64,000 nt of DNA, taken from assembly GCF_000746845.1 (NCBI RefSeq), contig NZ_KN050846.1, positions 2,248,963 through 2,312,962 on the forward strand. The letters run 5' to 3'. Position 1 is the first letter of the stretch; each line of letters starts with the position of its first letter. Source of the stretch: Altibacter lentus. Lineage in GTDB: Bacteria; Bacteroidota; Bacteroidia; Flavobacteriales; Flavobacteriaceae. Below, one piece after another: positions 1,673 to 57,620 of the stretch. Under the pieces are notes generated by a model, which was not told the origin of the DNA, made no database searches, and saw only the letters and a list, made by a program, of their open reading frames with translations. Made by a program: the position numbers and the translations under genes.

Positions 1673-2076
1673 TGAACACTGAAAAACTCATTAAAGAGTG
1701 CGATTTTAAAGCGATGCGAAGTAGCGGGCCCGGAGGGCAGCACGTCAATAAAACTGCTTCGAAAGTAGAAGTCACTTTTAATATAATTGCTTCGGAAGCA
1801 TTGACTTCCATAGAAAAGGAACGCCTTCAGAAGAAATTGGAATCGAGAATCTCTTCAGAAGGAGCCATACAGTTGCAATGCGGAGAAACCCGAAGTCAGC
1901 ATAAGAACAAAGCACTTGTGATCGAACGACTTATTGCGCTTTTGAAGAAGCATCTTAAGGTCGCAAAGCCGCGCAAAAAGACAAAACCATCAAAAAGTGC
2001 CATGGAGCGCCGACTGAAGACCAAAAAGGAGCAGGCGCTAAAAAAATCGAACAGGAAACCTCCTAGATTAGAGTAA
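1672..2076 (+). CDS. arfB: Alternative ribosome-rescue factor B (peptidyl-tRNA hydrolase)
   Basis: The 134-residue protein carries the release-factor catalytic signature SSGPGGQHVNKTAS with the GGQ at residues 21-23, followed by a small RF-1-like domain. The last 35 residues are a Lys/Arg-rich tail (KPRKKTKPSKS, RRLKTKKEQ). In ArfB/YaeJ this tail enters the empty mRNA channel of stalled ribosomes while GGQ hydrolyses the peptidyl-tRNA. Codon-recognition domains of normal release factors are absent, and the length equals the ArfB family. The start overlaps the DUF4301 stop by one base. Confidence 0.9.
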   Translation: MNTEKLIKECDFKAMRSSGPGGQHVNKTASKVEVTFNIIASEALTSIEKERLQKKLESRISSEGAIQLQCGETRSQHKNKALVIERLIALLKKHLKVAKPRKKTKPSKSAMERRLKTKKEQALKKSNRKPPRLE

Positions 2077-2081
2077 AACCT

Positions 2082-2089
2082 TATCTTTG
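2082..2089 (+). promoter_or_regulatory. Bacteroidota -7 promoter box before the TPP riboswitch
   Basis: TATCTTTG matches the TAnnTTTG box of the Bacteroidota primary sigma factor. It lies about 12 nt before the riboswitch, so the transcript would start just ahead of the aptamer. No clear TTTG -33 element is seen. Confidence 0.6.
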
Positions 2090-2100
2090 TATCACATCTC

Positions 2101-2190
2101 AAAGGGGTGCCGATTTTGTTTCTGTTCCGAAATAGAAAAAGCTGAGATTATACCCAATGAACCTGGGCGGATAATGCTGCCAAGGGAATA
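2101..2190 (+). promoter_or_regulatory. TPP riboswitch (THI element)
   Basis: All conserved pieces of the thiamin pyrophosphate aptamer are present in order: GGGGTGCC (2104-2111), GCTGAGA (2141-2147), ACCC (2152-2155), GAACCTG (2159-2165), ATAATGC (2171-2177) and AAGGGAA (2182-2188). It is followed by a small GACAC/GTGTC hairpin (2192-2204) and an intrinsic terminator. AATAGG at 2187-2192, the 3' edge of the aptamer, is complementary to CCTATT in the terminator's 5' arm, giving a plausible antiterminator in the absence of TPP. It should switch off the downstream TonB-dependent receptor when thiamin is plentiful. Confidence 0.92.
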
Positions 2191-2217
2191 GGACACCAAG
2201 TGTCTGCATGATATACC

Positions 2218-2252
2218 CCTATTAGATCATTTTGGTTCTAATAGGTTTTTTT
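2218..2252 (+). terminator. Riboswitch-controlled intrinsic terminator
   Basis: CCTATTAGA (2218-2226) pairs perfectly with TCTAATAGG (2237-2245), a 9-bp stem with a 10-nt loop, followed by seven T. It lies between the TPP aptamer and the receptor start, so it is the expression platform. Confidence 0.88.
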
Positions 2253-2319
2253 ATGCGAAATCATTATCAATATTTAACCATAGAATAACGCCCCTTTTAT
2301 TCGTACAATTTATTTACGA

Positions 2320-4497
2320 ATGAAGAATTTTACCTTGTTATTAAGTTTATTGACCATTTCTACTACATTAATGGCTCAAGAAGTAGTTACAGACACTACA
2401 AAAGTGGAACCATTGGAAGAAGTATTAGTAAGGGCGGTTCGTGTTAAAGCCGATTCGCCCATTACGCATTCTAATATCGAAAAGGAAGAGCTGGAACCAA
2501 GAAATCTTGGTCAGGATATTCCTTATATGCTTAATTATTTACCTTCGGTGGTTACTACCAGCGATGCCGGAGCGGGTGTTGGCTATACGTATATTAGAGT
2601 GCGGGGTAGTGATGCTTCCCGCATCAATGTCACTCTCAACGGCATTCCTTTTAACGATGCCGAAAGTCAGGGGACCTTTTTTGTAAACCTACCGGATTTT
2701 ACTTCCTCCGTACAAAGTTTACAGCTGCAACGCGGCGTAGGTACTTCCACGAATGGTTCCGGTGCCTTTGGAGCCAGTTTAAATGTGTTGACCGATGCTG
2801 TTTCTGAAACGTCCTTTGGCGAGATCGCGAATTCTTTTGGCTCTTATAACACCCGAAAGCACACGGTAAAGTTCAGTACCGGACTGCTCAATGACCATTT
2901 CGAGATCGCAGGACGCCTTTCAACAATTAAATCTGACGGGTATATAGACAGGGCGCGATCTGATCTTAAATCGTACTTCCTTCAGGCTGCTTTTACAGAC
3001 CATAATACCCTTATAAAAGCCATTACTTTTGGAGGTCGCGAAGAGACCTATCAGGCCTGGTATGGTATCGATGCTGAAACCTTAGAGAATGACCGAACGT
3101 ATAATCCGGCAGGAATGTACACCGATAGTGATGGCACTGTACGTTTTTACGACAATGAAGTAGACAACTATGCACAGGATCATTTTCAAGTACTCTGGAA
3201 CCAACGCTTCAACAATCAATGGAGCAGTAATGTGGCAGTCAATTATACCTACGGAAGGGGTTATTTTGAACAATACAAGGAAGATGAAGATTTTGCCTTT
3301 TACGATTTTGAGCCTATTTCCATAGGTGTTGATTCTATTAATTCCACAGATCTTATTCGTCGTCGCTGGCTGGACAATGACTTCTATGCCATAAATGCGA
3401 ATGTCAATTACAAGGACAACACTTGGGATATAAGTACGGGTGCCTTCTTTAGTCTGTATGACGGTGATCATTTTGGGGAGGTGATCTGGGCACGCTATGC
3501 CAGTGAAAGTGAGATCCGGGATCGCTATTATTTTGGTGAAGGAGACAAAAATGAATTCACGATTTTTTCGAAAGCGACCTGGCGGTTAAACGATGTTTGG
3601 AGTGTATTTGGGGACCTTCAGGGTAGATTCCTGAGCTACACTACTTCGGGCTTGACTTCAGAAAAAGTTCCGCTGGCGGTAGACGAAACCTATTCGTTTT
3701 TTAATCCGAAAGCCGGTGTATCCCTGAAACTTTCACAAGAACAACAGCTCTACGCATCCTACGGTCGAGCCCACAGAGAACCCAGACGAAGTGATTTTGA
3801 ACAAGGGATCTTTACAGCCGAAAAGTTGGACGATATTGAATTGGGATGGCGGTATGTTTCAGAAAAACTAGTGATTAACAGCAACCTGTTCTATATGGAC
3901 TACAAAGATCAATTGGTGCTTACCGGTGCCTTGGATGATGTAGGGGCACCTATTAGGGCGACCAGCGGAAAAAGTTACCGGCTCGGACTCGAGATGGATG
4001 CATCGATCGCACTTTCCGAAGCGCTAAGCCTGCAGCCCAATGTGGCGATAAGCAAAAACCAGAATGTAGATTTTGTGACATCGCTCGATGGTGCACTGGT
4101 AAACCTCGGAAATACAGAGATATCGTTTAGTCCGTCACTCATAGCAGCCAACAGATTAGCATATAAGCCTGTGGAGTCGTTGGAGTTAGCCCTGCTTTCA
4201 AAATATGTGGGAACACAGTATATGGGAAATACCGAAAGTCCTGTCTCTAAACTGGATGCTTATTTTGTGAACGACCTCAACATAACCTATACACTTAAGC
4301 AGTTGCCTTGGGTGCGCGAGGTGCTTTTTTCGGCATTATTAAACAATCTTTTCAATACGGAATATGTATCGAATGGATATTACTTTACCTATGACGATGA
4401 TTTTTCGGTCCCGGGAACTGTTACCACAGTAGAAGGAGCGGGCTATTATCCGCAAGCAACATTCAATTTCTTGATAGGCGCTACGGTAAAATTCTAA
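2320..4497 (+). CDS. TonB-dependent outer-membrane receptor, probably for thiamin
   Basis: The 725-residue protein starts with a signal peptide (MKNFTLLLSLLTISTTLMA, cleavage before QE), followed by a plug domain (about 40-150, with YIRVRGSDASR and GVGTSTNGSGAFG) and a long beta-barrel with alternating aromatic strands ending in a C-terminal Phe (GATVKF). It would import a substrate across the outer membrane using TonB energy. Substrate assignment to thiamin or a derivative rests on the TPP riboswitch directly upstream, since the family itself covers many ligands. It is separated from the riboswitch terminator by 68 nt. Its stop overlaps that of the convergent lipoprotein gene. Confidence 0.9.
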   Translation: MKNFTLLLSLLTISTTLMAQEVVTDTTKVEPLEEVLVRAVRVKADSPITHSNIEKEELEPRNLGQDIPYMLNYLPSVVTTSDAGAGVGYTYIRVRGSDASRINVTLNGIPFNDAESQGTFFVNLPDFTSSVQSLQLQRGVGTSTNGSGAFGASLNVLTDAVSETSFGEIANSFGSYNTRKHTVKFSTGLLNDHFEIAGRLSTIKSDGYIDRARSDLKSYFLQAAFTDHNTLIKAITFGGREETYQAWYGIDAETLENDRTYNPAGMYTDSDGTVRFYDNEVDNYAQDHFQVLWNQRFNNQWSSNVAVNYTYGRGYFEQYKEDEDFAFYDFEPISIGVDSINSTDLIRRRWLDNDFYAINANVNYKDNTWDISTGAFFSLYDGDHFGEVIWARYASESEIRDRYYFGEGDKNEFTIFSKATWRLNDVWSVFGDLQGRFLSYTTSGLTSEKVPLAVDETYSFFNPKAGVSLKLSQEQQLYASYGRAHREPRRSDFEQGIFTAEKLDDIELGWRYVSEKLVINSNLFYMDYKDQLVLTGALDDVGAPIRATSGKSYRLGLEMDASIALSEALSLQPNVAISKNQNVDFVTSLDGALVNLGNTEISFSPSLIAANRLAYKPVESLELALLSKYVGTQYMGNTESPVSKLDAYFVNDLNITYTLKQLPWVREVLFSALLNNLFNTEYVSNGYYFTYDDDFSVPGTVTTVEGAGYYPQATFNFLIGATVKF

Positions 4498-30340: not shown

Positions 30341-31639
30341 ATGCAAGTAAAGAATTTCGTCGAAGAACTACAATGGCGTGGCATGGTCCACGATGTGATG
30401 CCCGATACTGAAGCTCATCTCATGGAGGAAATGCGAGCTGCCTATGTGGGGTTTGATCCCACTGCAGACTCCCTTCATATAGGTAATTTGGTGCCCATCA
30501 TGCTATTGGCCTTCTATCAGCGTTGTGGCCACAAGCCCTTAGCGTTAGTAGGTGGCGCCACGGGAATGATCGGGGATCCCTCTGGAAAGTCCAGCGAACG
30601 AAATTTATTGGATGAAGCTACCTTGCGCCATAATCAAGAATGTGTCCGCGCGCAGCTTTCGCAGTTTCTCGACTTTTCGTCGGGAGCTCCTAATGAAGCG
30701 GTCATGGTGAACAACTACGATTGGATGAAGGATTTCTCCTTCCTTGGTTTTATCCGGGATGTGGGAAAACATATTACCATCAATTATATGATGGCGAAAG
30801 ACTCCGTAAAGAATCGAATTTCAGGTGACGCTACAGAAGGGATGTCTTTTACAGAGTTCACGTACCAGTTGGTGCAGGGATATGACTTTTTGCATTTGTA
30901 CCGGGAACAAGGCTGCACCTTGCAAATGGGCGGGAGCGATCAATGGGGAAATATCACCACCGGAACAGAGCTGATTAGGCGTATCGCCGGAGGCAAAGGA
31001 TTTGCACTAACTTGTCCTTTGATCACAAAGAGTGACGGCAGTAAATTTGGTAAAAGTGAAGGCGGTAATGTGTGGTTGGACGCCAAGCGTACATCTCCCT
31101 ATAAATTCTATCAATATTGGTTGAACACCAGTGATGAAGACGCCGAAAAATATATAAAGATATTCACCTTTCTTGATAAGCCCACCATAGAGGCGCTTGT
31201 TGCAGAACATGCTGAAGCCCCTCACCTTCGATTATTACAGCGGCGATTGGCCGAAGAAGTAACGACCACCGTTCACGGGAAGGAAGCCTTGGAAAAAGCG
31301 ATACAAGCTTCGGAAATTCTCTTTGGACGTGCCACGTCTGCCCAGCTGAAACAACTGGATGAGGCAACCTTCTTAGACGTCTTTGAAGGTGTGCCGCAGG
31401 GAGAGGTCGAAGCTTCAACAGTAGCAGAAGGACTTGATATAATTAGCGCACTTGCCGAGCGCACCGGTTTCCTAAAATCCAACGGCGAAGCAAGAAGAGC
31501 CCTTAAGGAACAGTCTATTTCGGTGAATAAGGAAAAAGTTTCCGAAGGATATACAATTAGGAGCGAAGACTTAATTAACGGTCAATTCGTGTTGCTTCAG
31601 CGTGGGAAGAAAAACTATTTTATCATTAAGACCGTATAA
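30341..31639 (+). CDS. tyrS: Tyrosine-tRNA ligase
   Basis: The 432-residue class I synthetase has [18 protein letters not shown] (HIGH motif), [25 protein letters not shown] and the KMSKS counterpart [10 protein letters not shown]-terminal S4 RNA-binding domain (about 365-432) is present. It charges tRNA-Tyr. The stop codon lies within a short 8-nt tandem repeat. Confidence 0.98.
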
Positions 31640-31662
31640 CCGTATAACCGTATAATCGTATA
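31631..31662. repeat. Four tandem 8-nt repeats over the tyrS stop
   Basis: ACCGTATA occurs three times in a row, followed by ATCGTATA. The first copy encodes the end of TyrS and its stop codon, and the rest is non-coding. Confidence 0.8.
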
Positions 31663-31669
31663 AAAGAAG

Positions 31670-41828: not shown

Positions 41829-42881
41829 ATGATTAAAACCGACATACTTATTATTGGAGCAGGACCTACGGGTCTTTTTACTGTTTTTGAAGCCGGCTTA
41901 CTCAAGTTGCGTTGCCATTTGATTGATGCACTGCCACAGCCCGGCGGACAATGTGCCGAAATCTATCCCAAAAAACCCATCTACGATATTCCGGCTTTTC
42001 CTGAAATACTTGCCGGAGAACTTGTCGCGAATTTGATGAAACAAATTGAACCGTTCCAACCCGGATTTACCCTGGGAGAACGGGCAGAAACCATTGAAAA
42101 AACGGAAGACGGCAGTTTTATTGTTACAACAAACAAAGGAACAAAACATCACGCTCCCATTGTAGCGATAGCAGGAGGCCTGGGCAGTTTCGAGCCGCGA
42201 AAACCACCCATTACCAATATTTCAGATTATGAAGACAAAGGAGTAGAGTACATTATTCGCGATCCTGAGATCTACCGGGGAAAGGACGTGGTCATTGCCG
42301 GAGGCGGTGACTCTGCTTTGGATTGGAGTATCTTTTTAACCGATATCGCTGCGAGTGTCACCTTGATCCATCGTCGAAATGAGTTTAGGGGTGCGTTGGA
42401 TAGTGTAGAAAAAGTCCAGGAACTTAAAAATCTTGGGCGTATCGAGTTACTCACGCCGGCTGAGGTTATCGATATTGTAGGAAATGGCAAAGTGGAAGGC
42501 GTATCGATAAAACAAGGCGCAGATGTATTTAATAGATCCTGTGATCATTTTATTCCGTTATTCGGATTGGCACCTAAACTAGGCCCTATAGCCGATTGGG
42601 GCTTAGAGATAGAAAAGAACGCCATTAAAGTAGACAACACCCTCGATTACCAAACAAACATTCCTGGGATCTACGCCATTGGTGATGTGAACACCTACCC
42701 GGGGAAACTCAAACTTATTCTCTGTGGATTCCACGAAGCGACATTGATGTGTCAAAGTGCATACCAACGTATTTTCCCCGAGAAACGCTATGTAATGAAA
42801 TATACCACCGTAGGCGGAGTGGAAGGATTTGACGGAAGTAAAAAAGAGGCTCCGAAAGCTGTAATAAAGTCTATTGATTAA
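41829..42881 (+). CDS. FAD-dependent ferredoxin-NAD(P) reductase-like oxidoreductase
   Basis: The 350-residue flavoprotein has the FAD motif IIGAGPTGLFTVFEA, LIDALPQPGGQCAEIYPKKPIYD, an NAD(P) motif VIAGGGDSALDWSI and the C-terminal FAD motif GIYAIGDVNTYPGK. It matches the thioredoxin reductase-like ferredoxin-NADP reductases (YumC type), lacking the redox CxxC of true thioredoxin reductase. A 2Fe-2S ferredoxin gene, its likely partner, lies 430 nt downstream, separated by an inserted four-helix-bundle gene. Confidence 0.9.
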   Translation: MIKTDILIIGAGPTGLFTVFEAGLLKLRCHLIDALPQPGGQCAEIYPKKPIYDIPAFPEILAGELVANLMKQIEPFQPGFTLGERAETIEKTEDGSFIVTTNKGTKHHAPIVAIAGGLGSFEPRKPPITNISDYEDKGVEYIIRDPEIYRGKDVVIAGGGDSALDWSIFLTDIAASVTLIHRRNEFRGALDSVEKVQELKNLGRIELLTPAEVIDIVGNGKVEGVSIKQGADVFNRSCDHFIPLFGLAPKLGPIADWGLEIEKNAIKVDNTLDYQTNIPGIYAIGDVNTYPGKLKLILCGFHEATLMCQSAYQRIFPEKRYVMKYTTVGGVEGFDGSKKEAPKAVIKSID

Positions 42882-42889
42882 GAAAGCAG

Positions 42890-42924
42890 GGGTTAGTCTA
42901 TAGGAGATAGGGATTAGGTAATAA
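42890..42924. repeat. Left heptamer array of the first four-helix-bundle locus
   Basis: Five consecutive 7-nt units: GGGTTAG, TCTATAG, GAGATAG, GGATTAG, GTAATAA (first four ending TAG). They begin 8 nt after the reductase stop and end 9 nt before the four-helix-bundle ATG. Confidence 0.75.
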
Positions 42925-42933
42925 AAAAAGGGA

Positions 42934-43287
42934 ATGTCTATACATAAATTTGAAGACATAATTGCTTGGCAAAAGTCTCAAAACTTAGCTGTTTCAATTT
43001 ATAAAAATTTTAATCTTTCTAAAGATTTTGGATTCAGAGATCAAATTACAAGGGCATCAGTATCCATTTCAAATAATATTGCTGAAGGATTTGAAAGAGG
43101 TTCAAATGCAGATTTTGTAAGATTTTTATACATTGCATTAGCTTCAAATAGCGAAGTAAGATCGATGCTCTATTTATCAAAGAAATTAAATTATTTGCAA
43201 TGTGATATTGCAGATACGTTAATTGAAATGTCGAATGAAATATCAAGAATGCTTTACGGTTTAATTAAATCAATGACTAATTCCTAA
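42934..43287 (+). CDS. Four-helix-bundle protein of the S23 / 23S rRNA intervening-sequence family
   Basis: The 117-residue all-helical protein has the family marks IIAWQKSQNLAVSIY, RASVSISNNIAEGFERGS and SEVRSMLYLSKKL. The family was first seen encoded within 23S rRNA intervening sequences, and Avd of diversity-generating retroelements has the same fold; the function of stand-alone copies is unknown. Base composition is clearly AT-richer than the flanking genes. It splits a reductase-ferredoxin pair and is enclosed by inverted heptamer arrays, so it looks inserted. Its stop codon lies inside the right array. Confidence 0.9.
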   Translation: MSIHKFEDIIAWQKSQNLAVSIYKNFNLSKDFGFRDQITRASVSISNNIAEGFERGSNADFVRFLYIALASNSEVRSMLYLSKKLNYLQCDIADTLIEMSNEISRMLYGLIKSMTNS

Positions 43288-43304
43288 CCCCTAACTCCTA
43301 ATAA
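43277..43304. repeat. Right heptamer array of the first four-helix-bundle locus
   Basis: Four units CTAATTC, CTAACCC, CTAACTC, CTAATAA. The second is the exact reverse complement of the left unit GGGTTAG, and all start CTA, the complement of the left TAG endings. The array ends 6 nt before the ferredoxin start. Confidence 0.75.
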
Positions 43305-43310
43305 CTTAAT

Positions 43311-43637
43311 TTGGACATTAAAATCACCATCATAGACCGCCATGGCACACCTCACGAAGTAGATGCCCCTACCGATATGAATATGAACCTAATGGAAATT
43401 GTTCGTTCTTATGAACTAGCTCCCGAAGGAACCATTGGTATTTGCGGCGGTATGGCCATGTGTGCTTCCTGCCAATGCTATGTATTGACAGATCACGAGT
43501 TACCCGAAATGAGCTACGATGAAGACTTGATGCTAGCAGAAGCATTCAACGTACAGGACAATAGCAGGTTAGGATGTCAAATTCATATAAAACCTGAAAT
43601 GGAAGGACTTAAAGTGCAACTGGCGCCTGAAGCCTAG
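43311..43637 (+). CDS. 2Fe-2S ferredoxin
   Basis: The 108-residue protein has the cluster motif GICGGMAMCASCQCYV (Cys spacing CX5CX2C) and a last ligand in SRLGCQIHIKPEM, as in adrenodoxin/ISC-type ferredoxins. The start must be TTG at 43311, because an in-frame TAA at 43302-43304, part of the upstream heptamer array, blocks extension and the next Met lies inside the fold. It would pass electrons from the FAD reductase upstream. Confidence 0.88.
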   Translation: MDIKITIIDRHGTPHEVDAPTDMNMNLMEIVRSYELAPEGTIGICGGMAMCASCQCYVLTDHELPEMSYDEDLMLAEAFNVQDNSRLGCQIHIKPEMEGLKVQLAPEA

Positions 43638-54597: not shown

Positions 54598-55143
54598 ATG
54601 GAAAAAGTAACTAAGGTTCAGGATACCATCGACGGGCAATTGCTCAAGGAGCGAAAGATCTTCTTATGGGGGATGGTCGATGATAAGAGTGCCAAACACA
54701 TTGTAGACCGGCTCATGTATTTGGATTCCCTGAATCACGACGAAATAAAATTCTATATCAACAGTCCGGGAGGTTACGTGACCAGCGGGTTCTCCATTTA
54801 CGACACCATGAAAAGCCTAAAGAGTCCCGTAGCGACTATTTGCACGGGTCTGGCAGCCTCCATGGGAAGCATTTTGCTTAGTGCCGGGGAAAAGGGGAAG
54901 CGGTACATACAGCCTCATGCACGGGTGATGATCCATCAGCCCAGCGGCGGTGCACGCGGACCGGCCAGTGATATCGAGATCACAGCCCAGGAGATCCTTA
55001 AAACCAAAGAGCTGAGTGCCAAGATCCTCGCCGATAATTGCGGACAGACTTTCGAAAAAGTGATGAAGGACTTTAACCGCGACCACTGGATGGGCGCAAA
55101 GGAAAGTGTGGATTATGGTATTGTGGATAAGATTGCTAAGTAA
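54598..55143 (+). CDS. clpP: ClpP-family serine protease subunit
   Basis: The 181-residue protein has the ClpP triad: S88 in GLAASMGS, H113 in MIHQPSGG, and D162 in FNRDHWMGA, and the INSPGGYVTSGFSIYDTM strand. The hydrophobic-pocket and handle regions look normal. It forms the degradation chamber with Clp ATPases. No clpX is adjacent, so it may be a second ClpP copy in this genome (inference). Confidence 0.93.
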   Translation: MEKVTKVQDTIDGQLLKERKIFLWGMVDDKSAKHIVDRLMYLDSLNHDEIKFYINSPGGYVTSGFSIYDTMKSLKSPVATICTGLAASMGSILLSAGEKGKRYIQPHARVMIHQPSGGARGPASDIEITAQEILKTKELSAKILADNCGQTFEKVMKDFNRDHWMGAKESVDYGIVDKIAK

Positions 55144-55159: not shown

Positions 55160-55194
55160 GGTGCATGGTGAATGGTGAAGGGTGATTGGATAAT
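55160..55194. repeat. Left heptamer array of the second four-helix-bundle locus
   Basis: Five consecutive 7-nt units: GGTGCAT, GGTGAAT, GGTGAAG, GGTGATT, GGATAAT. They begin 16 nt after the clpP stop and end 14 nt before the next ATG. Confidence 0.8.
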
Positions 55195-55208: not shown

Positions 55209-55562
55209 ATGGATCATAAGGAAATGAATGTTTGGAATAAGGGTATGGATCTGGTTGAAAGGATTTATATAATCAGTAATGAATTTCCATCTGAAGAAAC
55301 CTATGGCCTTAAAAATCAAATAAGAAGAGCGGCTGTGTCAGTTCCGTCTAATATAGCCGAAGGTGCTGCAAGGAAAGGGAATAAAGAGTTTTTACAGTTT
55401 ATAAATATTGCGCTAGGCTCTTGGTCGGAAGTAGAAACTCAATACTTGCTAGCGATGCGCTTGGGATATAGTAAAGAAGATAAAGAACTTGATGAACGAA
55501 TCGTTTCAGTACGCAAATTACTTTTAGGAACCCGAAACTATATAAGAAAAACGAACGCTTAA
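55209..55562 (+). CDS. Four-helix-bundle protein of the S23 / 23S rRNA intervening-sequence family, second copy
   Basis: The 117-residue protein has the same length as the copy at 42934 and the same marks: MNVWNKGMDLVERIY, RRAAVSVPSNIAEGAARKG, SEVETQYLLAMRL. The two are clearly paralogous but far diverged, so not a recent duplication. It lies between clpP and a DUF58 gene, with heptamer arrays on both sides. Its stop codon overlaps the first base of the right array. Function of stand-alone members is unknown. Confidence 0.9.
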   Translation: MDHKEMNVWNKGMDLVERIYIISNEFPSEETYGLKNQIRRAAVSVPSNIAEGAARKGNKEFLQFINIALGSWSEVETQYLLAMRLGYSKEDKELDERIVSVRKLLLGTRNYIRKTNA

Positions 55563-55644
55563 CTACTCACTACTCACTAATCACTATTCACTAATCACTA
55601 TTCACTAATCACTATTCACTAATCACTAATCACTACTCACCATT
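55561..55644. repeat. Right heptamer array of the second four-helix-bundle locus
   Basis: Twelve consecutive 7-nt units, starting AACTACT and CACTACT, then alternating CACTAAT and CACTATT, and ending CACTACT, CACCATT. They are inverted relative to the left array (CACCATT is the complement of AATGGTG). The array ends 2 nt before the DUF58 ATG. Confidence 0.9.
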
Positions 55645-55646
55645 AA

Positions 55647-56576
55647 ATGAACATCGAAAAGGAAATAAACGAAATTACCGGCTTCAAGAATCTGGAGCTG
55701 CTCGCCACGCAGGTAGTGGAGGGGTTTATTTCCGGTTTGCACAAGAGTCCGTTCCACGGGTTTTCTGCCGAATTTGCCGAACACAAGATCTACAACAACG
55801 GTGAGAGTACCAAGCACATCGACTGGAAGCTGTACGCCAAGACCGACAAGCTATATACCAAGCGATATGAGGAAGAGACCAATTTACGGTGTCATTTGAT
55901 CCTGGACAACAGCAGCTCCATGCATTATCCGCCTGTAAAGCAGTTTGGGATCGGGTCGTTGAACAAGATAGGGTTTTCGGTACTGGCAAGTGCGGCCATC
56001 ATGAACCTCTTAAAACGGCAACGGGATGCGGTAGGCATGAGTATTTACAGCGATACGTATGAGTTCTATGCTTCGGAAAAGGGGAGCGAGCGCCACCATC
56101 ATTTATTGCTGCATCAATTAACCGAAGCCTTGACGCGAACACGCAGGCAGGTCCCTACCAGGACCTACACCCATTTGCACCTCATTGCCGAAAAGCTGAA
56201 GCGACGTTCGCTGGTATTCCTGTTCACCGATATGTTTCAGAGCGACGCCGAAGAAGAAAAGCTCTTTGAGGCCCTTCAGCATTTAAAGTACAACAAACAC
56301 GAAGTCGTACTCTTCCACACCTACGATAAGGAGAAGGAGATCCACTTCGATTTCAACAACCGCCCCAAGCGATTTGTAGACGTAGAGACCGGTGCCCATG
56401 TCAATTTGTATGCCGATACCATCAAGGCGTCCTATGAAGAAGCGGTGGCGCAGTATTTCAGTGATCTCAAATTAAAGTGCGGGCAGTATCGCATCAAGTA
56501 TGTGGCGGTCGATATCAAGGAATCCTTCAACAAGATCCTCACCACCTATCTGGTCGAACGGCAGAAGTTCGGATAG
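55647..56576 (+). CDS. DUF58 family protein (von Willebrand A-like)
   Basis: The 309-residue protein has the DUF58 signature STKHIDWKLYAKTDKLYTKRYEEE and a MIDAS-like LILDNSSSM followed by FLFTDMFQS, consistent with a vWA-like domain. These proteins act with MoxR AAA ATPases as chaperone-like modules; no moxR is adjacent. The ATG lies directly after the heptamer array. Confidence 0.88.
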   Translation: MNIEKEINEITGFKNLELLATQVVEGFISGLHKSPFHGFSAEFAEHKIYNNGESTKHIDWKLYAKTDKLYTKRYEEETNLRCHLILDNSSSMHYPPVKQFGIGSLNKIGFSVLASAAIMNLLKRQRDAVGMSIYSDTYEFYASEKGSERHHHLLLHQLTEALTRTRRQVPTRTYTHLHLIAEKLKRRSLVFLFTDMFQSDAEEEKLFEALQHLKYNKHEVVLFHTYDKEKEIHFDFNNRPKRFVDVETGAHVNLYADTIKASYEEAVAQYFSDLKLKCGQYRIKYVAVDIKESFNKILTTYLVERQKFG

Positions 56577-56784: not shown

Positions 56785-56858
56785 GGTCTGGTAGTTCAGT
56801 TGGTTAGAATACCTGCCTGTCACGCAGGGGGTCGCGAGTTCGAGTCTCGTCCAGACCG
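56785..56858 (+). tRNA. tRNA-Asp (anticodon GTC)
   Basis: The 74-nt sequence folds as a tRNA: acceptor GGTCTGG / CCAGACC, D-loop with AGTTCAGTTGGTTAGA, anticodon loop CTGTCAC (GTC), T-arm GGTTCGAGTC-type sequence GAGTTCGAGTCTC, discriminator G. CCA is not encoded. It decodes Asp. It lies at the boundary to the AT-rich region downstream. Confidence 0.97.
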
Positions 56859-56877
56859 CAACTAAAATGTTGTGTTG

Positions 56878-56965: not shown

Positions 56966-57490
56966 GACAGTGAATCTTCGATTCACGTAGTCGAACTAAT
57001 CCCGCTGCAAGCGGGATCTCAATCTTTTATAGCCTTACCATGACAGTGAATCTATGATTCACGTAGTCGAACTAATCCCGCTGCAAGCGGGATCTCAATC
57101 TTTTATAGCCTTACCATGACAGCGAATCTTCGATTCGCGTAGTCGAAGGAATCCCGCTGCAAGCGGGATCTCAATCTTTTATAGCCTTGCCGTGACAGTG
57201 AATCTATGATTCACGTAGTCGAAGGAATCCCGCTGCAAGCGGGATCTCAATCTTTTATAGCCTTACCATGACAGTGAATCTATGATTCACGTAGTCGAAG
57301 GAATCCCGCTGCAAGCGGGATCTCAATCTTTTATAGCCTTACCATGACAGTGAATCTATGATTCACGTAGTCGAAGGAATCCCGCTGCAAGCGGGATCTC
57401 AATCTTTTATAGCCTTGCCGTGACAGTGAATCTATGATTCACGTAGTCGAAGGAATCCCGCTGCAAGCGGGATCTCAATCTTTTATAGCC
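56966..57490. repeat. Seven tandem copies of a 76-bp structured repeat
   Basis: Units start at 56966, 57042, 57118, 57194, 57270, 57346 and 57422, an exact 76-bp period; the last lacks its final spacer. Each has a 7-bp hairpin GTGAATC-nnn-GATTCAC, then GTAGTCGAA, then a 7-bp hairpin ATCCCGC-TGCAA-GCGGGAT, then TCAATCTTTTATAGCC and a TTACCAT or TTGCCGT spacer. Unit 3 has GCGAATC/GATTCGC, a paired change that keeps the stem. Units 1-2 read CGAACTA after GTAGT, units 3-7 CGAAGGA. No ORF. Function unknown. Confidence 0.95.
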
Positions 57491-57620
57491 TGATTTACTG
57501 AGGAAAAAAGTATCATTTGGGACATTACTCCCCGATCCGTCGTCTTAGTTTTGTTTACTTTTATTACTATAGCACTGTAAAACAGGATTTTATGTTATTT
57601 TGTTCAATCTATTAATTAGT

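Follow-up and report, generated by a model that had tools for sequence, protein, structure and literature searches.

Private inverted heptamer arrays are associated with S23-family genes in bacterial operons

Why a gene of the S23 family should stand between a reductase gene and a ferredoxin-like gene, enclosed by arrays of short repeats that are inverted with respect to each other, is a question raised by the window analysed here, a stretch of 64,000 nucleotides of the Altibacter lentus genome (contig NZ_KN050846.1, positions 2,248,963 to 2,312,962). A preliminary description of this locus proposed that the whole block had been inserted and that it represents a mobile or repeat-generating element. 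To our knowledge, S23/IVP proteins have lacked a known function ever since the 1990s, and bacterial heptamer repeats have been catalogued for equally long without a known cause. The block, referred to as element 1, and its neighbours comprise the following features, with positions given within the window.

41829..42881, + strand: upstream host gene, thioredoxin-reductase-like FAD/NAD(P) reductase (profile match)
42890..42924, + strand: 5' heptamer array, GGGTTAG TCTATAG GAGATAG GGATTAG GTAATAA (sequence, lag-7 and inverted-match test)
42934..43287, + strand: S23 / 23S rRNA-intervening-sequence protein gene, 117 aa (PF05635, TIGR02436, PDB relatives)
43277..43304, + strand: 3' inverted heptamer array, CTAATTC CTAACCC CTAACTC CTAATAA (sequence, TRF period 7, shuffle test)
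43311..43637, + strand: downstream host gene, 2Fe-2S ferredoxin-like, with a TTG start (weak profile match)

The five 7-nt units before the gene and the four inverted units after it are present exactly as first described. The 3' array overlaps the last S23 codons, and the stop codon TAA (43285-43287) lies inside its second unit. The product belongs to the S23 family, matching PF05635 with 119 bits (E=9.8e-35, cut-off 33.8); TIGR02436 is matched by the S23 proteins of the window with 115-117 bits (cut-off 24), and the element 1 protein has solved relatives in PDB (2gsc and 2rld). No Rfam match was found at this locus. Compared with their own shuffles, the flanks showed an inverted match at p=0.001 and lag-7 periodicity at p=0.021 upstream and 0.0005 downstream, so that element 1 taken alone is suggestive evidence for paired arrays.

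A second case, which the preliminary description did not mention, lies about 12 kb away in the same window and has a different heptamer unit (element 2).

54598..55143, + strand: upstream host gene, clpP-like protease (ORF; name read from sequence)
55160..55194, + strand: 5' heptamer array, GGTGCAT GGTGAAT GGTGAAG GGTGATT GGATAAT (shuffle test)
55209..55562, + strand: S23 gene, 117 aa (PF05635 match in its own genome, TIGR02436, weak Avd match)
55562..55644, + strand: 3' inverted heptamer array, about 11 units of the CACTAAT/CACTATT type (TRF period 7/14)
55647..56576, + strand: downstream host gene, DUF58/vWA-like (ORF; name read from sequence)

The inverted-match and lag-7 tests of its flanks against shuffles gave p=0.0035, 0.0015 and <0.0005. 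The 3.16-Mb A. lentus genome (G000) has no further PF05635 genes, and both of these carry inverted heptamer arrays. An S23 gene with GTGA-type heptamers is present at the clpP site in each of the four congeners. The window also contains repeats of other kinds, namely a period-8 tandem array of four copies (ACCGTATA) at 31631-31663, and a 76-bp tandem repeat in about seven copies at 56966-57491, approximately 107 bp downstream of tRNA-Asp (56785-56859). The 76-bp repeat consists of two hairpin-like halves (GTGAATC..GATTCAC and ATCCCGC..GCGGGAT), and partial copies occur 16 kb further along the genome.

The association was surveyed at 137 S23 loci of Bacteroidota, comprising the top matches from 249 genomes of the family and 296 genomes of the phylum, plus all copies from several genomes. 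The S23 family (PF05635) was present in 192 of the 249 family genomes, with up to 19 matches per genome. Within 70 nt on both sides of the genes, lag-7 identity was 0.425 against 0.299 in shuffled sequence (SE 0.005); lag 14 was also raised, lag 8 slightly, and the remaining lags were not. The upstream flank matched the reverse complement of its own downstream flank with a median of 12, compared with 7.5 between loci (p=4e-46), while the match in direct orientation was at background. By a strict criterion, 58% of the sides carried a significant array, with 42% of the loci having arrays on both sides and 74% on at least one. The arrays, typically about 31 nt long, lie directly against the start and stop codons. 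Among ordinary genes of the congener G101 the corresponding values were 6-7% per side and 0.5% for both sides, and the Avd genes of diversity-generating retroelements (DGR), the nearest relatives, had downstream arrays in none of 19 cases and no inverted match (7.0). Most S23 genes of Bacteroidota thus possess arrays, and the linkage that had been noticed at one locus proved to be far more general than supposed. Period 7 and the inverted match were likewise found at S23 loci of Alphaproteobacteria, Planctomycetes, Cyanobacteria, Acidobacteria and Chloroflexi, the inverted match being weaker in Chloroflexi and Cyanobacteria.

Several other origins of this pattern were considered. Bias from choosing the top HMM matches was rejected, since the genomes from which all copies were taken give the same fractions. 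Dropping of S23 into one pre-existing array was rejected because direct similarity between the two flanks is at background. Strict mirror-image terminal repeats were likewise rejected, the positions of the best matches being weakly correlated (rho 0.27, p=0.06). The association of S23 genes with private inverted heptamer arrays is close to certain. Some S23 genes (loci L012, L025 and L007) have arrays of period 8 (AAACTTTG) and not of period 7, which are common to related S23 genes at unrelated sites.

In genomes with multiple S23 genes, an array matched its own partner with a mean of 12.3 and the arrays of other S23 sites in the same genome with 7.47 (p=2.5e-19), the latter value being equal to that between foreign genomes. 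These same-genome cross pairs rule out a genome-wide heptamer dialect as the cause of the flank match. Array similarity was higher between loci at the same site than between different sites, and own pairs matched better than orthologous same-site pairs (p=1.7e-5, with the loci partly dependent). At sites sharing no common neighbour, strong array matches were found in 38% of pairs with S23 identity above 65% (21 pairs) and in 1% or less below 55%. The unit thus follows the S23 clade at unrelated sites and hence the S23 lineage, a pattern that joint movement of the gene and its arrays, or reading of the unit by the protein, would produce.

The insertion proposed for the reductase-ferredoxin locus is borne out by relatives in which the site is empty. 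In the two closest congeners, G249 and G250, whose reductases are 97% and 89% identical, the ferredoxin ORF abuts the reductase stop codon without an S23 gene or arrays, and in many other genera the gap between the two genes amounts to a few bases. A third congener, G101, has an S23 gene with related heptamer units at this site, while in a member of another genus (G078) about six TAATGAN heptamers occur there with no S23 gene. Relatives are therefore patchy and do not always carry the block. The ferredoxin gene starts with TTG at the filled and array-only loci and with ATG, overlapping or following the reductase stop codon, in G249 and G250, a difference suggesting that insertion may have occurred within an overlapping TAATG junction. 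When filled and empty sites were compared for a target-site duplication, the ends had diverged and no duplication was definable. In the reductase tree A. lentus pairs with G249 and G101 with G250, while the S23 proteins of A. lentus and G101 are sisters, which implies either an old insertion followed by two clean losses or transfer between lineages. Mobility, as originally proposed, is supported over long time scales alone, and no recent jump was caught.

The host sites are diverse and include groES/groEL, fatty-acid oxidation, NADH dehydrogenase, tRNA lysidine synthase and uroporphyrinogen decarboxylase genes, some of these names being read from sequence. The S23 gene lies in sense between co-directional genes at 126 of 137 loci and antisense to both neighbours at five. 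Where the two neighbours are co-transcribed, read-through would also carry transcription across such a cassette. The presence of S23 is patchy, and intact host operons without it exist; 17 S23 loci were found at the hydroxyacyl-CoA dehydrogenase/thiolase junction. The dN/dS ratio of S23 is about 0.1-0.2 (with dS large or saturated), indicating purifying selection. When sites were mapped on the S23 tree, 26 changes were needed for 24 shared sites, the minimum being 23, and S23 genes of the same site are nearly monophyletic. Because the tree is nearly partitioned by site, inheritance is mainly vertical. In cyanobacterial operons of type I-D, S23 lies between cas6 and cas4. For example, plasmid pANA02 of Anabaena sp. 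90 carries at positions 1819-4067 (L195) an S23 cassette with CAGGTGA/TGTCACC heptamers between these genes, and L196, L197 and L214 are similar. The cassette in the cas operon is probably a passenger, which calls for caution in taking S23 for a Cas accessory.

Heptamer arrays also occur away from S23 genes. In 800 kb of G101, 21 strict arrays were found outside S23; few match the arrays of resident S23 genes, and the idea that they are non-autonomous copies of resident elements was rejected on this ground. Other S23-rich genomes had four arrays in 400 kb and S23-less genomes had none in 740 kb, both samples being small and phylogenetically uncontrolled. The suggestion that the element generates repeats is a tentative one: S23-free arrays are numerous in one congener, yet none occurred in the S23-less sequence. 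In G101 some S23-free intergenic regions (L276-L315; for example at contig positions 738751, 745131, 1636244 and 2164647) are mosaics of different arrays (AAATCCC, GATTTGG, GTGAGTA and TTGTTGAG), which may be nested insertions or the scars that lost cassettes left behind.

Together, these observations give good support to an insertable cassette composed of a gene for the S23 protein, a pentameric four-helix bundle, and its own private inverted heptamer arrays. They also support the view that the gene and both arrays travel together and are lost as a unit. It is natural to infer that S23 may recognise the heptamers. The reading that we favour, with a probability of roughly 0.55, is that the block represents a selfish cassette that is long-lived and passed on mostly by vertical descent, and whose S23 pentamer would recognise its own heptamers. 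S23 would bind these heptamers in both arrays, at the level of DNA or of a ribonucleoprotein, and this recognition could keep both arrays on one unit while slippage alters the copy number. Together with host enzymes, S23 might effect rare insertion at stop/start junctions, after which the cassette would be inherited vertically for long periods and its loss would be either clean or leave an array scar. Several observations weigh against this reading. The filled sites of A. lentus and G101 against the empty ones of G249 and G250 need two clean losses or transfer, and the clustering of S23 genes by site indicates little recent transposition. Further points are the share of 42% of loci with arrays on both sides by the strict criterion, the S23-free arrays of G101, most of which do not match those of its resident S23 genes, the weak mirror order of the arrays, the lack of a definable target-site duplication, and the Coxiella S23 protein, which is probably not produced (PMC4990558).

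An RNA-level explanation, in which the arrays pair in the operon mRNA and the S23 ORF is released from the flanking cistrons by RNase III cleavage of the stem, so that the stem itself is under selection, appears rather unlikely. The rRNA intervening sequences (IVSs) are indeed cut by RNase III within a stem (PMC4990558), and the sense bias of the S23 genes, the median duplex energy of -31.7 kcal/mol for own flanks compared with -20.8 between loci, and the predicted fold of element 1, in which GGGUUAG pairs with CUAACCC, are all consistent with such a hairpin. However, the z-score of the whole-element fold is only -1.66, and pairing is no better in the sense than in the antisense strand, the duplexes being equally stable. 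Selection on a stem predicts more G-U than A-C mismatches; their equal frequency in the sense strand (158 and 178, p=0.30) argues against it. We consider it improbable that S23 is a domesticated regulator, which would bind the heptamers to regulate its own gene or the host operon and would be retained for this role and not as a selfish element. Arrays placed directly at the S23 start and stop, strong purifying selection and long vertical retention at one site, as at the 17 loci of the thiolase junction, would suit a regulator, but not the great diversity of host genes or the patchy presence in operons that are intact without S23.

It is highly improbable that slippage makes heptamer tracts everywhere and that S23 genes merely lie in such independent microsatellites. 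Flanks that match in inverted and not in direct orientation, arrays private to each S23 within one genome, the lack of such arrays at ordinary and Avd genes, and their absence from 740 kb of S23-less genomes all speak against it, although heptamers are reported to be the most abundant class of 5-11-nt simple sequence repeats in most bacterial genomes (PMC4679880) and G101 has many S23-free arrays. Finally, a DGR-like retroelement, in which S23 acts as Avd and a reverse transcriptase in trans copies the cassette RNA, is barely credible. S23 is related to Avd (PMC10053308), the element 2 protein matches Avd NF033474 with E=1e-4, and the genes have a sense-strand bias; against this, no RVT_1 gene was found in A. 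lentus, G101 or G250, which have two, eight and five S23 genes, respectively, and DGR Avd genes lack paired arrays.

The phenomenon is real, general and under-described, and its new part is the general, private, two-sided heptamer code of S23 genes. In the open-licence literature, the sole mention found of an S23-heptamer link concerns one ORF, in the Coxiella IVS (PMC4990558), and an earlier report may exist elsewhere. The association yields the testable hypothesis that S23 binds its own heptamer, and connects rRNA IVSs with a large class of cassettes that reside in operons. S23 genes inside operons, cas operons included, are probably passengers that do not belong to the pathways.

Among known systems, insertion sequences and MITEs have a transposase or family-wide terminal inverted repeats, whereas S23 is alone inside its cassette and the units differ between elements of the same genome. 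In REP/RAYT systems the gene of a small protein stands between short inverted repeats that are cognate to it, RAYT being a Y1 transposase and the REPs palindromes. S23 is also flanked by its own short inverted repeats; unlike RAYT, it has no known catalytic domain, and its units are non-palindromic heptamers. DGR Avd belongs to a homologous family of four-helix-bundle pentamers, but it adjoins a reverse transcriptase and has no paired arrays.

The arrays resemble bacterial heptameric simple sequence repeats (LSSR/STRR) in being tandem 7-nt intergenic units of variable copy number, as in TAACTGA of Beggiatoaceae, GGGAATC of Xanthomonas, and GGGGAYT and the STRRs of Nostoc. These repeats lie mostly between co-directional genes, with 70-75 inverted heptamer pairs per genome in Xanthomonas, and their descriptions mention no S23 link (PMC4679880, PMC4692102). 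They are genome-wide, whereas the unit of an S23 gene is its own and differs from those of the remaining arrays in that genome. A broader proposal, which is tentative and doubtful, is that S23 proteins could be sequence-specific heptamer binders with a private code that make or maintain arrays; they would then be the source of many STRR, GGGAATC and TAACTGA repeats, and rRNA IVSs would be one branch of the element.

The closest likeness is to the rRNA IVSs of Coxiella and Leptospira, which share with the operon cassettes the protein family, the sense orientation with the host transcript, the complementary flanks and the patchy presence. In the Coxiella 23S rRNA IVS, (GACAGAT)2-3 and GACAGAA, in a number varying between strains, directly precede the S23 ORF, which is in sense; the excision stem arises from inverted repeats, and the S23 protein is probably not produced (PMC4990558). 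The operon cassettes differ in having protein-coding host genes and heptamer arrays on both sides, in an S23 gene under purifying selection where the Coxiella ORF is decaying, and in a wobble test that gives selection on an RNA stem no support. The elements described here lie between protein genes and not inside an rRNA gene, and a short-motif search found no 23S motif in any of the S23 loci analysed. Thus, by location the S23 operon cassette is not an rRNA IVS, but it probably works like one and shares its origin, and the comparison supports the view that rRNA IVSs are elements of this kind that occupy a different niche.
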